Of a stretch of DNA of 64,000 nucleotides, positions 14,290-49,159 are shown in pieces. A model generated the notes under the pieces. That model was not told the origin of the DNA and did no database searches. It worked only from the letters and a program-made list of their open reading frames with translations. Within the stretch, counting starts at the first letter, position 1. Every line of letters begins with the position of its first letter. The stretch is from contig JAIXOI010000055.1 in assembly GCA_027486795.1 (NCBI GenBank), positions 1 to 64,000 on the forward strand, in the 5' to 3' direction. The DNA comes from Sphingobacteriales bacterium. GTDB lineage: Bacteria; Bacteroidota; Bacteroidia; Chitinophagales; CAIOSU01. A program made the translations under genes and the position numbers.

Positions 14290-14349
14290 ACCCTTGCTAA
14301 ATTAAGGGAAACGGTGAACTGTGGACTGTGGACTGTGTACCTTGGACCA

Positions 14350-15321
14350 ATGAAGAAAGTAAAATACCATTATAATAAGCAGACCTTGCGCTATGAGCGC
14401 ATAAAGCCATCATGGAGTAAAAACCTCCTGTTGGGCATGAGCTTTTTAATCACTTCGGCCATTTTTGGCGTGGGTATGGCTATGCTGGGTTTCTATTATT
14501 TCGATTCGCCGAAGGAAAAGATTTTGAAGCGTGAGATTGAAAAGATGCAACTAGAGTATGGTATTTTAGACCAGAAACTAGAGCAAATGACCGAGGTGCT
14601 GCAGGGCTTGGAATACCGCGATGAGAACATTTACCGCGTAGTGTTTGAGGCAGAGCCCATTCCAGCCTCGGTGCGCGAGGCGGGCACAGGCGGTTCGCAA
14701 AAGTATAAAAGCTTAGAAGGGTTTGAGAACAGCGACCTAATGGAAAATACGGCCATGCTATTGGATAGGCTCCGCAAGAAAATGTATGTGCAGAGCAAAA
14801 GTTACGATGAAGTGGCAGAACTAATCAAGAACAAAGAGCTGATGCTCTCTTCCATACCGGCCATTATGCCTGTAGCCAACAAAGACCTAACCCGCGTGGC
14901 ATCAGGTTACGGTATGCGCATCCATCCAATTTACAAAACTTATAAAATGCACACGGGCATGGACTTTACCGCGCCTGTGGGTACCGATATATATTCGACA
15001 GGCAGCGGAACGGTAGTTGAAGTGGAGTATGGCAGCGGTGGTTATGGCAAACATGTAATAGTTGACCATGGATTTGGATACCAAACCCTTTATGGCCACA
15101 TGTATAAAGTAAATGTGAAAAGGGGGCAGAAAGTATTGCGTGGCGAAGTGCTAGGCTCAGTAGGCAATACGGGTACCTCAACGGGCCCGCACTTGCACTA
15201 TGAGGTAATCAAGAACGGCATTAAGATAAACCCGGTAAACTATTACTTCAATGATTTAACTCCTGAAGAGTTTGAGCGTATGTTGGAGATAAGCAGCAAC
15301 CACAACCAATCGTTCGATTAA
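14350..15321 (+). CDS. M23 (LytM-type) peptidoglycan endopeptidase, membrane-anchored
   Basis: A 323-residue protein. A basic N-terminus and one membrane span (about 30-52) are followed by a coiled-coil-like region (about 57-85), a linker, and a C-terminal LytM domain with the zinc ligands in MRIHPIYKTYKMHTGMDF and the GPHLHYEV motif. Both halves of the HxxxD and HxH signature are intact, so it should be catalytically active, unlike the degenerate EnvC/NlpD activators. It probably cleaves peptide cross-links at the periplasmic face. ATG 14350 was chosen over a frame that opens in simple repeats at 14314. A 7-bp repeat array begins 13 bases after the stop. Confidence 0.92.
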   Translation: MKKVKYHYNKQTLRYERIKPSWSKNLLLGMSFLITSAIFGVGMAMLGFYYFDSPKEKILKREIEKMQLEYGILDQKLEQMTEVLQGLEYRDENIYRVVFEAEPIPASVREAGTGGSQKYKSLEGFENSDLMENTAMLLDRLRKKMYVQSKSYDEVAELIKNKELMLSSIPAIMPVANKDLTRVASGYGMRIHPIYKTYKMHTGMDFTAPVGTDIYSTGSGTVVEVEYGSGGYGKHVIVDHGFGYQTLYGHMYKVNVKRGQKVLRGEVLGSVGNTGTSTGPHLHYEVIKNGIKINPVNYYFNDLTPEEFERMLEISSNHNQSFD

Positions 15322-15333
15322 GTTGTTTTTTTA

Positions 15334-15402
15334 GACACAAGACACAAGACACAAGACACAAGACACAAGACAAAAAATACAACCTGCCTGCCGGCAGGCA
15401 GG
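15334..15402 (+). repeat. GACACAA array plus 20-bp perfect palindrome
   Basis: About five GACACAA units (15334-15372) are followed by the perfect palindrome CCTGCCTGCCGGCAGGCAGG at 15383-15402, then another GACACAA piece. The same palindrome recurs twice at 19548 and 19610, also embedded in 7-bp arrays. It lies just after the M23 stop and could fold into a strong hairpin. Confidence 0.9.
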
Positions 15403-15446
15403 GACACAAGACGAGCAGAAGATGACAAATGTCAGACCGGAAGTTT

Positions 15447-15461
15447 GATTAATTTTTAATC
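15447..15461. promoter_or_regulatory. AT-rich inverted repeat before the Fur-family gene
   Basis: GATTAA-TTT-TTAATC is a perfect 6-bp inverted repeat with a 3-bp centre, 39 bases before the fur-family start. Fur/PerR proteins commonly bind AT-rich inverted repeats and regulate themselves, so this is a candidate operator. It is inferred from position and symmetry only. Confidence 0.35.
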
Positions 15462-15500
15462 GTTCACCAATAACCAATAACTAATACACCGATTAACCAA

Positions 15501-15914
15501 ATGACAAACACGGTTTCCTTACTTAAAGAACATAACCTGCGTAACACCGAGGCTAGAGTAGCGGTGCTAAATACCTTTATGGTGCAGCCGCATGCCCTAT
15601 CGCATGGCGATATTGAGCGCGAAGTAGGGGAGCAGTTTGATAGGGTGACCATCTACCGCACTCTTACTTCATTTATGGAGAAAGGCCTGCTGCATAAAGT
15701 ACCCGTTGACGATGGCAGTACCCGTTATGCGCTTTGCGACCACTGCGACCACCACCAGCACGAAGACAACCACATCCACTTTAAATGTACCGTTTGCGGC
15801 AATACCCAGTGCCTCGACGACCTACCCATACCCCAAGTAAAACTGCCACAAGGCTACACCCTCACCGAAACCAACTTTTTAGTGCAAGGGGTTTGTAAGG
15901 GGTGTAATGGGTGA
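15501..15914 (+). CDS. Fur family transcriptional regulator
   Basis: A 137-residue metal-dependent repressor. The N-terminal winged helix includes ARVAVLNTF and the recognition part FDRVTIYRTLTSFMEKGLLHKV. The C-terminal dimerisation domain has the histidine-rich HHQHEDNHIHFKC segment and two CxxC pairs (CTVC and CKGC) for structural zinc. The histidine-rich region and overall layout fit Fur/Zur/PerR-type proteins. Which metal or signal it senses cannot be told from the sequence. Thus it could be Zur- or PerR-like rather than Fur itself. Confidence 0.9.
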   Translation: MTNTVSLLKEHNLRNTEARVAVLNTFMVQPHALSHGDIEREVGEQFDRVTIYRTLTSFMEKGLLHKVPVDDGSTRYALCDHCDHHQHEDNHIHFKCTVCGNTQCLDDLPIPQVKLPQGYTLTETNFLVQGVCKGCNG

Positions 15915-15987
15915 AATCATGGTTCGAACAAAGAATTGAACCATTCTCCACCTTCCATACGTTCCTATTGCAACCATTATATATGCC

Positions 15988-16593
15988 ATGAATTCAATTG
16001 CCTTCCAAAAGTATTTGGATAAAAGCCTTTCTTACCCTCAATATCGCGCCCTTATTGATTCCCTTTTAGTGGAAGGTAAAACTACTGGTACCAATCACTC
16101 AGCTGATTTTATCAATTACACGCAACTTAACGTAATCCGCATGGAGCGCTTGGATAAAACCATTGTGCTGAAAGATGATTTGCTGGTAGCTTTGCAGCGC
16201 TTGAAACGCAAACAGATATGGCTCTTAATAACTGAGGCTTGGTGTGGAGATGCAGCTCAAAACTTGCCTATATTGCACCAAATAGTAAAGCAAACCCCCA
16301 ACATTGAGCTGCGCCTTGCACTGCGAGATGAGAACCTAGAGCTGATGGACCAATACCTTACCGATGGTGGCCGCTCGATACCTAAGTTAATAATGCTTGA
16401 TGCGGAAACATTAACTGAGTTGGCCACTTGGGGTCCTAGACCGGCAGGTGCGCAAGAGTTGCTGGCAGCCCACAAAGCCAACCCTACTGAAAGCCATGCT
16501 GATTTCGTTAAAAATGTACAGTTGTGGTATGCCAAAGACAAAACCCTAAGCACTCAGCACGAATTGTTGGCTTTGCTGAAATCGATAGATTGA
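15988..16593 (+). CDS. Thioredoxin-like protein (Thioredoxin_9 type)
   Basis: A 201-residue cytoplasmic protein (no signal peptide) whose middle (about 70-175) has a thioredoxin fold: KQIWLLITEAWCGDAAQNLP, then a helix, and SIPKLIMLD holding the cis-proline. The usual CxxC is reduced to C-G-D-A, so only one cysteine is at the active position. That is common in this subfamily and argues against ordinary disulphide exchange. The role is not established. It lies 73 bases behind the Fur-family gene on the same strand. Confidence 0.82.
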   Translation: MNSIAFQKYLDKSLSYPQYRALIDSLLVEGKTTGTNHSADFINYTQLNVIRMERLDKTIVLKDDLLVALQRLKRKQIWLLITEAWCGDAAQNLPILHQIVKQTPNIELRLALRDENLELMDQYLTDGGRSIPKLIMLDAETLTELATWGPRPAGAQELLAAHKANPTESHADFVKNVQLWYAKDKTLSTQHELLALLKSID

Positions 16594-16850
16594 TTTAGGT
16601 GTCGAGTTTGAATTTTATACAATAATCGGCATAACAATAAGGTACCAAGTGAGTTTTCTGTCGGCCAAGAAATGGCCTCCTTCAGTTTCTTTTTCCAATA
16701 AGCGGATTGGGAAACGCCGTTAACTACGACTATAAATGATATAAACACAAAAATGTCAATCGTACTCGAATCAGTCTATTGAGCATATTAGCTGTGTCGG
16801 TACATTTTATTAATTTTTGTAACGGTATTATACAGCACCATGATTTTGAT

Positions 16851-16864
16851 TTGACAATAATCAG
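16851..16864. promoter_or_regulatory. Possible Crp/Fnr-type binding site
   Basis: TTGACAATAATCAG differs from the FNR consensus TTGAT-N4-ATCAA at the two symmetric inner and outer positions. It lies about 137 bp before the usp gene whose cluster ends with a Crp/Fnr regulator. This is a weak match and could be chance in AT-rich sequence. Confidence 0.3.
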
Positions 16865-16956
16865 GATTAAGGATGATGCATGTTGCTTTTTATAGGCTTA
16901 TTTAAATTTAATTTCGAAGAGTAAATGAGTAAGTATTGCATTGAAGGTTTTTTTGG

Positions 16957-16980
16957 TGGATTATTTTCTGTAATAATCCA
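16957..16980. promoter_or_regulatory. Perfect 9-bp inverted repeat in the usp leader
   Basis: TGGATTATT and AATAATCCA pair exactly around a 6-base loop (TTCTGT), ending 20 bases before the usp ATG. It could be an operator or an RNA hairpin that limits translation. It lacks a T-run, so it is not a simple terminator. Confidence 0.45.
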
Positions 16981-17000
16981 AGGGAAGCATTAGCAAGGAA

Positions 17001-17915
17001 ATGGATAGGTATAAGCGAATTATGGTTGGTCTCGATTTTACGCCGATGGATAAGACCCTTGTGCAAACCGCTTCGTTTTTGGCGGCCTTATTGAAACCAG
17101 AGAAGATATATTTTGTAAATGCACAAGAAGGGCTTGAAAACGCAGAAGAATGGTTTGCCGAATACCCTGAGCTTGATGCCCCGATTGATGAAAAGTTTAA
17201 GGAAGAGATTGAGGCTGAACTGAAACTACATTATGAACCTGTTGATGGGGTTAGCTCTGAAACCCTGATATTGGAAGGTAGTGTTATAAAAGAATTGAAT
17301 CAACAGGTGCAAATAAACGAGATTGACTTGTTGGTTGTGGGTCGTAAAAACGGATTGAAAGGTAGTGGAATCATTTCTCAAAAGTTGGCACATAAGGTAC
17401 CTACCTCTATACTTTTTGTGCCTGAAGGAGGTAAACCATTGTTGGAGAATATATTGGTCGCTGTCGATTTTTCCCACAACTCCCGCCTAGCGGTTGAGGA
17501 GGCCATTGAGCTCGCTTTACTAAACAGTAATTGCGACATTACGGTGTTAAATACTTTCTGGCTGCCTTTAAAATATTACAAAACCAGTAAAACAGAAGCG
17601 GAGTTTAATCAAATAGCCAGAGCGAATGCTGAACGCAAATGCACACAATTTTTAAACGAAATAAATACAAAAGGAGTTAATTTAAAACCCTATTTTGTCA
17701 GCAAAAGGGAGCAATACACTTACGAGGCAATTTACGATTTTGCATTGGAGCAGCAAGCCAGTATTATTGTTATTGGTGGCATGGGGCACACCAATTTTTC
17801 GGCTCTTTTGTTGGGCAGTATTGCCGAAAAATTAATCAGCGTGGATATGGATATTCCATTGCTAGTGGTAAAAGATAAGAACGCAACACACGGGTTGCTC
17901 GATATATTGAAATAG
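17001..17915 (+). CDS. Tandem-domain universal stress protein
   Basis: A 304-residue protein with two UspA folds: domain 1 about residues 4-140 (IMVGLDFTPMDKTL at its start) and domain 2 about 152-292 (NILVAVDFSHNSRLAVEEA). The ATP-binding loop G-x2-G-x9-G-S/T is recognisable in domain 2 as GGMGHTNFSALLLGSIAEKL; in domain 1 it is altered (GRKNGLKGSGIISQKLAHKV). Such proteins accumulate under stress and are cytoplasmic. It heads a run of usp, usp and crp-type genes on one strand, 18 bases from the next. Confidence 0.92.
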   Translation: MDRYKRIMVGLDFTPMDKTLVQTASFLAALLKPEKIYFVNAQEGLENAEEWFAEYPELDAPIDEKFKEEIEAELKLHYEPVDGVSSETLILEGSVIKELNQQVQINEIDLLVVGRKNGLKGSGIISQKLAHKVPTSILFVPEGGKPLLENILVAVDFSHNSRLAVEEAIELALLNSNCDITVLNTFWLPLKYYKTSKTEAEFNQIARANAERKCTQFLNEINTKGVNLKPYFVSKREQYTYEAIYDFALEQQASIIVIGGMGHTNFSALLLGSIAEKLISVDMDIPLLVVKDKNATHGLLDILK

Positions 17916-17933
17916 CTATAAAAACAAACTACC

Positions 17934-18776
17934 ATGATACAGCACATTTTGGTTCCCACCAACTTTCTTGATTATGCAGTAAATGCGGCCGAGTATGCCG
18001 TGCAGTTGGCGGCACAATACAATGCCAGGGTTACGCTTTTCCACACCTACCACATACCCGTAATTGATCCTTTGGTTCCTTCGGAGTACCTAATGGAGTT
18101 GGCAAGCAGTGCCGAAAAAAACGCAGAAAATAGTATTCGCCAACAAGTCGAAGACCTTCAAGAAGCTTTCCCCCATATGAAAGATAGTATTGCCTATCAA
18201 ATATCCATGGGTTTTGCTGCCGACGAGATTCTATCCGTTGCCCATGCTACAGGCGCAGATGCCATTGTAATGGGCACTAGGCATAGCGAAAAAATACAAC
18301 GTATATTGTTGGGTAGTGTGTTAGGTACTATTTTAGAAAAGGCCGAGGTACCTGTAATAGTTATACCAGAGAATCTAGCCTACAAAACAATCAACAATAT
18401 ACTGTTCGCGTCGGAGTTTAATGATAGTGAAGATATCCACTCTATAAACCGTGTACTCGATTTTACAGCTAAACTGAATGGAACTTTGTATAGCCTTCAC
18501 ATTCAAGAAACCGAGCCCGACGAGAATGACATGATCCGCATTCAAAACATCAGGGCCATTTACGAGGGAAAACTTGGAGCGGGTAAGGTACATTTTGAGA
18601 ACATAGCCTATAGCAACATTCTGGAGGGCCTATCTAAATTTAGTAAGGTGAATGATATTGATATGGCTGTAATGGTAACGCACAAGCGCAACTTTTTTGA
18701 GAAACTGTTTGATAGGAGCTTAAGCAAGCAAATGGCATACAAAACGGATGTGCCTTTAATAGTGTTTCATAAATAA
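17934..18776 (+). CDS. Universal stress protein
   Basis: A 280-residue protein with two UspA domains. The first (about 3-140) has a full ATP-type loop, MGTRHSEKIQRILLGSVLGT. The second (about 145-280) starts NNILFASEFNDSEDIHSINR and lacks a complete glycine loop, ending in VPLIVFHK. It follows the first usp gene by 18 bases and precedes the Crp/Fnr gene by about 60, with a promoter-like sequence in that gap. The three may form one stress-response unit. Confidence 0.91.
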   Translation: MIQHILVPTNFLDYAVNAAEYAVQLAAQYNARVTLFHTYHIPVIDPLVPSEYLMELASSAEKNAENSIRQQVEDLQEAFPHMKDSIAYQISMGFAADEILSVAHATGADAIVMGTRHSEKIQRILLGSVLGTILEKAEVPVIVIPENLAYKTINNILFASEFNDSEDIHSINRVLDFTAKLNGTLYSLHIQETEPDENDMIRIQNIRAIYEGKLGAGKVHFENIAYSNILEGLSKFSKVNDIDMAVMVTHKRNFFEKLFDRSLSKQMAYKTDVPLIVFHK

Positions 18777-18811
18777 ATGGTTTTTACTGAACACTTTTGG
18801 TGCTTCTGGTG

Positions 18812-18819
18812 TACATTTG
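18812..18819 (+). promoter_or_regulatory. -7 element for the Crp/Fnr gene
   Basis: TACATTTG matches TAnnTTTG exactly and lies 20 bases before the chosen ATG at 18839. No clear -33 partner stands at the usual 19-21 bp. The regulator may thus have its own promoter besides read-through from the usp genes. Confidence 0.45.
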
Positions 18820-18838
18820 TATACCTAGTAAGCACATT

Positions 18839-19540
18839 ATGAAATTCTCTCAACCTGACTGTGCACATTGTAATGGCCGACGCGACTCGCTCTTTAGTTT
18901 TTGCAAAATGGCCGAAATTGATGAATTGAACGAAAGCAAATCGTGCAATAGTTATAAGCGTGGTCAAGTAGTGTTTGAAGAAGGGGCCAACCCGTTGGGC
19001 GTGTACTGCATCAATTCGGGTAAGGTAAAGCTGTATAAGCACGCATCCGATGGTAAGGAGCAGATTATACGTATTGTTAAGCCTGGCGATTTTTTAGGAT
19101 ACCGCTCCATGTTGGCGGGCACCAAGTATAAGCTCTCGGCATCGGCCATGGAGGATACTGCTGTGTGTATGATTCCTAAAGCTACTTTCTTGGAACTGTT
19201 TCGCACCAATGAGAGCTTCTCTAAAGGCCTTTTAAGCGCGCTGTGCAGCACTTTAGACGAGAGTTATACCAAGATGGCCGACATAGCTTACAAGCCCGTG
19301 AGGGGCCGTGTAGCCGAAGCGCTGCTTTTTCTCCATAACTTTTATAAAGATGAGCAAAACCCCCATGGCATCATTAACATAGGACGGGAGGATTTGGCCA
19401 GCTTTGTGGGTACGGTAAAGGAAACTGCTATCCGTATGCTCAAAGAGTTTAAAGATGAGGGCCTAATTGAAACGGATAAAAGCAATATTATTATTAAAGA
19501 TTCGGAAGGTTTATTGCATATTAGTGAGCTGTACGATTAA
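18839..19540 (+). CDS. Crp/Fnr family transcriptional regulator, possible Fe-S sensor
   Basis: A 233-residue regulator. It has a cyclic-nucleotide-binding-like beta barrel (about 30-130; GVYCINSGKVKLYKHASDGK, IVKPGDFLGYRSML) and a C-terminal HTH_Crp domain (GREDLASFVGTVKETAIRML as recognition region). Four cysteines precede or begin the barrel (C8, C11, C22, C36), a pattern compatible with an oxygen-labile cluster as in FNR, though the spacing is not the E. coli one. ATG 18839 (MKFSQPDCAHC) was chosen over an upstream frame at 18797, because it keeps this cysteine-rich head and sits behind a good -7 element. The position behind two usp genes suggests control of stress or low-oxygen survival. 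Confidence 0.9.
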   Translation: MKFSQPDCAHCNGRRDSLFSFCKMAEIDELNESKSCNSYKRGQVVFEEGANPLGVYCINSGKVKLYKHASDGKEQIIRIVKPGDFLGYRSMLAGTKYKLSASAMEDTAVCMIPKATFLELFRTNESFSKGLLSALCSTLDESYTKMADIAYKPVRGRVAEALLFLHNFYKDEQNPHGIINIGREDLASFVGTVKETAIRMLKEFKDEGLIETDKSNIIIKDSEGLLHISELYD

Positions 19541-19547
19541 GGCACAA

Positions 19548-19699
19548 CCTGCCTGCCGGCAGGCAGGGACACAAGACACAAGACACAAGACACAAGACAC
19601 AAGACACAACCTGCCTGCCGGCAGGCAGGGACACAAGACTCAAGACTAAAGACTCAAGACGCAAGACGCAAGACGCAAGACGCAAGACGCAAGACGCAA
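19548..19699 (+). repeat. Composite array: two 20-bp palindromes and three classes of 7-bp units
   Basis: CCTGCCTGCCGGCAGGCAGG occurs at 19548-19567 and again at 19610-19629, separated by GACACAA units. After the second copy the 7-bp units change: GACACAA, GACTCAA, GACTAAA, GACTCAA, then six identical GACGCAA copies (19658-19699). The blocks of a single variant suggest recent expansion by slippage. The array starts eight bases after the Crp/Fnr stop and is non-coding. Confidence 0.93.
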
Positions 19700-29315: not shown

Positions 29316-29403
29316 TTCAACCCGTAACTCGCAACTAATGTCATACTGAGCGTAGTCGAAGTACGTAACCCACAACAATTCTTGTGTCTTGTGTCTTGCG
29401 TCT
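29316..29403. repeat. Mixed intergenic repeats
   Basis: Three pieces seen elsewhere or in many Bacteroidota stand together: AACCCGTAACTCGCAAC (related to 14262), GTCATACTGAGCGTAGTCGA at about 29340, and three inverted 7-bp units (CTTGTGT, CTTGTGT, CTTGCGT) at about 29382-29402. The array ends five bases past the stop of the dehydrogenase gene on the minus strand. Confidence 0.7.
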
Positions 29404-49019: not shown

Positions 49020-49056
49020 AGGGTGGGGTGGTTATGCTGCCGCAAAGTTGGTGAAA

Positions 49057-49120
49057 AATGTACCAATGTGCTAATGTACCGATGTGCAAATGTGCTAATG
49101 TGCTGATGTACCGATGTGCT
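49057..49120 (+). repeat. 8-bp tandem array before purC
   Basis: Eight units of the form (A/G)ATGT(A/G)C(C/T/A) stand head to tail: AATGTACC, AATGTGCT, AATGTACC, GATGTGCA, AATGTGCT, AATGTGCT, GATGTACC, GATGTGCT. A ninth imperfect unit follows. This is a second minisatellite type with a different period from the GACACAA arrays. Confidence 0.85.
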
Positions 49121-49159
49121 GATGTTGAGATTTGCTAGCGCGGGAGTTACTCAAGTGCC

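Follow-up and report, generated by a model that had tools for sequence, protein, structure and literature searches.

The first 64,000 nucleotides of contig C53, in the 3.9-Mb draft genome of a Sphingobacteriales bacterium (this stretch is hereafter the window), contain three copies of a 20-bp perfect palindrome, CCTGCCTGCCGGCAGGCAGG (the palindrome, or PAL). We consider it probable that this sequence is a minimal mobile palindrome, moved in trans as a hairpin, spread further among arrays of the heptamer GACACAA and carried as a near-neutral passenger. A scan of the whole window recovered, letter for letter, the three copies that an earlier note on this DNA had reported, at 15383-15402, 19548-19567 and 19610-19629; no other site in the window matches at three or fewer mismatches, and the chance expectation from 100 dinucleotide shuffles is 0. 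The window's own genome (G000) was compared with four congeners (G001 to G004); L-numbers denote palindrome or array loci.

Comparison of orthologous loci shows a gain of exactly 20 bp at a site that already existed; the target is neither duplicated nor shortened, and the flanks stay intact. At L010 the palindrome is present in G000 and absent from G003, G002 and G004. The flanks in G003 are in register save for one base, and the alignment (gaggcaa followed by tacacaagacacaagac in G003, and by PAL and then gacacaagacacaagac in G000) leaves a clean 20-bp difference. At L006, where G000 has the palindrome, G003 carries a copy with a single mutation, G002 seven units and no palindrome, and G004 two units. 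At L003 the G000 palindrome corresponds to a disrupted copy in G003 and to an array only in G002. The copy at 15383 (L007) is absent from all four congeners: G002 has an array of three units there, G004 one of about four, and G003 and G001 have neither array nor palindrome. The locus at 19548 (L008/L009) has two palindromes in G000, one in G003, an array only in G001 and neither in G004. At L011, which holds a copy with one mismatch, G002 has neither array nor palindrome. Arrays without the palindrome stand at four orthologous loci, namely L003 (G002), L006 and L007 (both G002 and G004) and L010 (G003, G002 and G004), and arrays at one and the same locus differ in length from congener to congener, a point that the earlier note had proposed to test. 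Because these congener arrays lack the palindrome and the difference at L010 is a clean 20 bp, the arrays predate the palindrome, which is not their seed; it arrives as a 20-bp unit in arrays that existed before and without it. Other full sites are common to two or three congeners (by eye, L001 with L046 and L047, L002 with L054, and L004 with L059 and L063).

Genome-wide, G000 has ten exact palindromes, a further copy that departs from the sequence at one position and two that depart at two; the reversed control sequence has no match in this genome. GACACAA-like units adjoin all 11 best copies (the ten exact ones and the one-mismatch copy) and neither of the two-mismatch copies. Exact copies number 10 in G000, 1 in G001, 4 in G002, 8 in G003 and 0 in G004. 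For analyses of flanks and junctions, copies flanked by less than 60 bp were removed, as were duplicate sites; this left 22 of the 23 exact genus copies and 200 others. The junction is CAA-PAL-GA in 21 of the 22 distinct genus copies (20 with CAA-PAL-GAC and one with CAA-PAL-GAA); within the genus, the palindrome entered pre-existing GACACAA arrays at one fixed heptamer position. The exception (L061) lies in a tRNA fragment, outside arrays.

Outside the genus, the flanks of the 200 distinct copies are mutually unrelated and the palindrome has sharp ends, with a preference for A before it and T after it. For 24 of 201 junctions (the 200 extra-genus copies plus L061), the joined flanks recur uninterrupted in the same locus, with 24 or more of 28 positions matching. 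The right flank was slid from -8 to +15 and rows were not selected by offset; the best offset is 0 in 20 of the 24, +7 in two, -2 in one and +4 in one. A BLAST version of this test gave 24 of 201 junctions versus 18 of 774 control positions. Target-site duplication as a rule, as in insertion sequences or miniature inverted-repeat elements that duplicate their target, is ruled out by the offset of 0 in most local copies and by the 191 of 200 copies that lack a flanking direct repeat of 4 bp or more; the nine that have one are mostly in arrays. A hairpin-prone target was also rejected, as joined flanks fold no better than controls (p 0.93). The palindrome itself folds into a hairpin of -8 kcal/mol as DNA and -13.9 as RNA, its three translated frames are stop-free and both strands read alike. 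Nested or closely spaced palindromes, as nested or tandem insertions would give, occur at L088 (467), L235 (2773 and 2806) and L063 (1501 and 1556).

Ten of 60 relatives carry the exact 20-mer, as do 27 of 395 genomes sampled across the phylum (26 of 171 genera); G000 is included in both counts. Among 84,980 species genomes scanned, at least 116 stretches contain it. The 80 of these that were listed, read by lineage, comprise 32 from Patescibacteria, 21 from Bacteroidota, seven from Omnitrophota, five from Nitrospirota, four from planctomycete/verrucomicrobial (PVC) lineages, two from Elusimicrobia, one each from Chloroflexi and WOR-1, and seven with no lineage name; none of the 80 is named Proteobacteria, Firmicutes or Actinobacteria. 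Among 2.9 million viral contigs, 33 stretches also contain it. A 34-base query gave no full 20-mer match in 50,697 phage records, 72,556 plasmids and 20,395 Escherichia coli records, at a sensitivity that had no positive control; in the plasmid search the top score among the 8 of 32 matches listed was 36 bits. The 20-mer, its core and the encoded peptides were not found in the open-licence PMC literature of 5.39 million papers. An identical 20-mer in unrelated phyla, cleanly slotted into older sequence, resembles an extremely small mobile unit rather than an array seed. The earlier note's view of a moving unit rather than chance is strengthened by the 27 phylum genomes (none of the 395 matches the reversed control), by the many phyla and by the seamless empty sites. 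Its statement that the palindrome lies always within 7-bp arrays is correct for the window (3 of 3) and the genome (11 of 11) and does not extend beyond the genus, where none of 211 copies has GACACAA within 20 bp. The same note had named palindromes occurring mostly without arrays as evidence against itself; outside the genus this is what we see, with 12 of 200 copies in any tandem array.

We suggest that the palindrome travels as a hairpin of single-stranded DNA (8-bp stem, CCGG loop) and that a host or element enzyme may serve it in trans, most likely an HUH/Y1-type transposase, of the IS200/REP type (REP, repetitive extragenic palindrome), acting on single-stranded DNA. Within the genus, recombination and slippage among arrays would spread it further, and such exchange may do much of the spreading; copies would afterwards decay by point mutation without compensation. 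A Y1 transposase is our best guess because these enzymes act on single-strand hairpins and insert without target duplication. Their action on hairpins in single strands is described in the part of PMC6006769 cited here. Y1_Tnp domains are found in 42 of 60 relatives, including all four palindrome-bearing genus genomes, and GIY-YIG in 60 of 60, and the presence of neither discriminates carriers.

Several observations weigh against this proposal, most of them against the Y1 step. One carrier (G034, 94% completeness) has no Y1_Tnp match, another (G026) has 12 palindromes and one poor match, and G004, the member of the genus that lacks the palindrome, does have Y1 matches. A RAYT-like gene lies near only one of 230 copies (L225), and no guide tetranucleotide is conserved at the flanks (GTAG in 6 of 200, CGTC in 4 of 200). 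Four of the 24 local copies fit best at non-zero offsets, two of them at +7. There is no known vehicle between phyla, since the palindrome is absent from the phage, plasmid and E. coli sets at the sensitivity given. The direction of change, gain versus precise loss, rests on how the states are distributed among five congeners, transposition itself not having been observed, and the constant phase in the genus could have arisen as arrays were copied from one another, without repeated insertion. As a separate observation, the Y1_Tnp (RAYT-like) ORF at L225 (955-1530) begins directly beside the palindrome, the sole such case among the 230.

Copying is also the core of the strongest alternative, that the palindrome entered one genus array once and was then passed from array to array by gene conversion or unequal exchange, without being mobile itself there. 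We regard this as rather unlikely, although it would account for the single junction phase, for homogeneous arrays at many places and for tandem doubling of palindrome and array together, which is seen on contig C9 of G003 and in the window, where the copies at 19548 and 19610 form one locus in which the palindrome plus an array stretch is duplicated with a 62-bp period. The base at +1 of L010, which differs between full and empty sites, is what a short conversion tract would leave. Array copying does not, however, explain the seamless insertion of the same 20-mer at non-array sites in other families and phyla, nor the genus copy in a tRNA fragment.

It is improbable that the palindrome is a selected functional site such as a protein-binding site, a terminator or an RNA hairpin. 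Exact conservation of all 20 bp, an RNA hairpin z of -2.4 and the position of some copies behind a stop codon (as at 19548) would suit such a role, but congeners differ in presence at most compared sites and only the 10 of 60 relatives carry the palindrome. In G000 one copy (C38:4408) lies in frame within a 352-aa ORF; its G003 orthologue (protein 94% identical) has two substitutions in the palindrome that break the symmetry. Decayed copies in G003 (CCTGCCTGCCGGCAGGCAGA, CCTGCCGGCAGGCAGGCAGG and the disrupted copy at L003) show no compensatory change and, because copies decay in this way, the palindrome behaves as a near-neutral passenger and not as a kept signal. In a paralogue of the C38 ORF (L194; G000 C52:38562-39503), the same codon position is occupied by a GACACAA array that carries a different hairpin as an insert; here an array lies within coding sequence.

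Some copies are associated with tRNA fragments. The palindrome interrupts a tRNA-like stretch at 15 of 201 junctions versus 14 of 1905 controls, 12 of the latter being intact tRNA genes. The count was 16 before L088 was dropped as a likely artefact, the matching tRNA entry of L252 containing the palindrome. Most interrupted stretches are fragments of an adjacent intact tRNA, and the palindrome is often in the D-loop. Interruption of full tRNA genes was rejected: ARAGORN found no tRNA across the junction on the joined flanks of 168 copies tried, and the later tRNA matches are fragments of neighbouring tRNAs. At L252 (2239-2320, end approximate), the palindrome seems to lie in the variable loop of a predicted tRNA-Met gene.

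A GIY-YIG ORF adjoins the interrupted tRNA fragment at L057, L066, L085, L131 and L061 (PF01541 matches of 1.3e-17 for L057 and 4.7e-17 for L061), and GIY-YIG density is 4.06 per 100 kb inside 500 bp of the palindrome versus 0.22-0.30 farther away. This raised density, and the interruption by palindromes of duplicate tRNA fragments adjoining GIY-YIG genes, give a slim chance that GIY-YIG homing-type nucleases make breaks which the palindrome fills, with another copy as template. A GIY-YIG gene lies, however, within 500 bp of just 9 of 230 copies, and all nine are outside GACACAA arrays. Small GIY-YIG genes beside tRNA genes with palindrome-interrupted partial tRNA duplicates were noted at the five loci above and at L259; at L066 the GIY-YIG gene and the tRNA start are tandemly doubled.

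Extra-genus copies are also enriched in tandem arrays of unrelated sequence. Joining the flanks yields a tandem array for 12 of 200 copies versus 5 of 1541 controls (Fisher p 1.4e-8), and one of period 7 for 10 of 200 versus 1 of 1541 (Fisher p 3.2e-9), the heptamers being unrelated (TCTAAAA, AATTACG, GTCGTAA, AGGAAAA and others). The controls were taken close by and often fall in coding sequence, so this enrichment partly reflects intergenic placement. Together with the two local copies that fit at +7, it is what might be cited for the earlier note's suggestion that the palindrome could be a hairpin intermediate from which the arrays are seeded. We find this very improbable: the palindrome-free arrays at four orthologous loci largely refute it, the palindrome is present at only 4 of 18 array loci in G000 with three or more exact units (obtained by manual grouping of exact 21-mer positions) and missing from the other 14, and 188 of the 200 other copies have no array. 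An assembly or library artefact is a negligible prospect, for although most carriers are draft or metagenome assemblies, the same orthologous sites recur in separate assemblies (L001, L046, L047), which refutes it, and isolate genomes of several groups (Winogradskyella, Salegentibacter, Longitalea and others) have the palindrome.

By analogy, the closest kind of known element appears to be the small dispersed repeats (SDRs) of cyanobacteria, and the palindrome behaves like a very small mobile repeat that crosses phyla. The SDRs of Nostoc and relatives, which Elhai and colleagues are said to have described in 2008, are reportedly often embedded in tandem heptamers, and to our knowledge they are confined to one group of cyanobacteria. 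The likeness, which is one of description, lies in a dispersed repeat of about 20 nt with exact ends and, in the 200 copies, unrelated flanks, in precise insertion as shown by empty sites, and in embedding in tandem heptamers, both in the genus arrays and in the period-7 arrays elsewhere. Unlike SDRs, it is perfectly palindromic and has the same sequence across several phyla. Parts of two sources describe SDR5 as inserted precisely between nucleotides 3 and 4 of HIP1 (PMC4390886) and SDRs as about 20 bp long and possibly mobile (PMC2884548). An iterated palindrome of the HIP1 kind was rejected, as ten exact copies in 3.9 Mb fall short of its very high density. REP elements are described in parts of PMC3733652 and PMC6006769 as short, palindromic, mostly intergenic and served in trans by RAYT/TnpA-REP. 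The palindrome is likewise short, palindromic and mostly intergenic, and would also be served in trans; a REP with its RAYT was nevertheless rejected, given the tetranucleotide counts above and 229 of 230 copies with no RAYT-like gene nearby. Rickettsia palindromic elements are far longer and can sit in frame inside ORFs, where the palindrome can also lie in frame and stop-free; we know of no cross-phylum identity among them. They are mentioned in the part of PMC3733652 cited here. Part of PMC4679880 describes heptanucleotide arrays, TAACTGA among them, in Beggiatoaceae, Cyanobacteria and Bacteroidetes, and ranks heptanucleotides first among repeat classes in most genomes. GACACAA arrays are also 7-bp direct repeats, intergenic and patchy, but the heptamer is another one and palindromes go unmentioned in that part of the source.

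In the window, an array of 5.7 GACACAA units (15333-15372, plus strand; Tandem Repeats Finder, TRF) precedes the first palindrome, located like the others by sequence match and without strand, between ORFs 14314-15321 and 15501-15914. The unit on its left is degenerate (gacaaaaaatacaa) and a single GACACAA unit stands on its right; the ORFs flanking the array are presumably an M23-type peptidase and a Fur-like protein (named by eye). The second copy lies right behind the stop codon of ORF 18797-19540 in the ORF listing, which we take, by eye, to be Crp/Fnr-like. The second flanking GACACAA array spans 19568-19699 on the plus strand (TRF and unit scan): six units (19568-19609) separate copies 2 and 3, and a degenerate portion with units GACTCAA and GACGCAA (19630-19699) follows copy 3. 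Arrays without palindrome were found at the contig end (1-72, plus strand, TRF) and, by TRF and unit scan on the minus strand, at 215-247 and, a short one, at 29380-29403. The contig starts inside the first of these, so the assembly may be interrupted at arrays, and the array counts are minimum values. A further tandem array with an 8/16-bp period (consensus AATGTACCAATGTGCT) is located at 49056-49136.

Eleven of 60 relatives contain a second perfect palindrome, TCCCGATAGCTATCGGGA, which has no match in the control and shows a similar patchy spread. Its copies (L320-L330, from G034, G014, G029, G041, G044 and others) are mostly in other genomes than those of the first palindrome, and the one at L322 is within an apparent 7-bp array. 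Tentatively, and at somewhat less than even chances, we propose that a 20-bp palindrome, the same in several phyla, ranks with the smallest known mobile DNA units, that a trans-acting machinery inserts it seamlessly and favours 7-bp arrays and tRNA fragments, and that TCCCGATAGCTATCGGGA belongs to the same class. If true, 20 bp in cis would suffice for DNA mobility, and one such unit would have crossed phylum borders, yet it was not found in the phage, plasmid and E. coli collections searched. The system is testable, with full and empty congener sites, a fixed insertion position and countable copies, and it bears on why small inserts gather in heptamer arrays and in tRNA-adjacent GIY-YIG cassettes.

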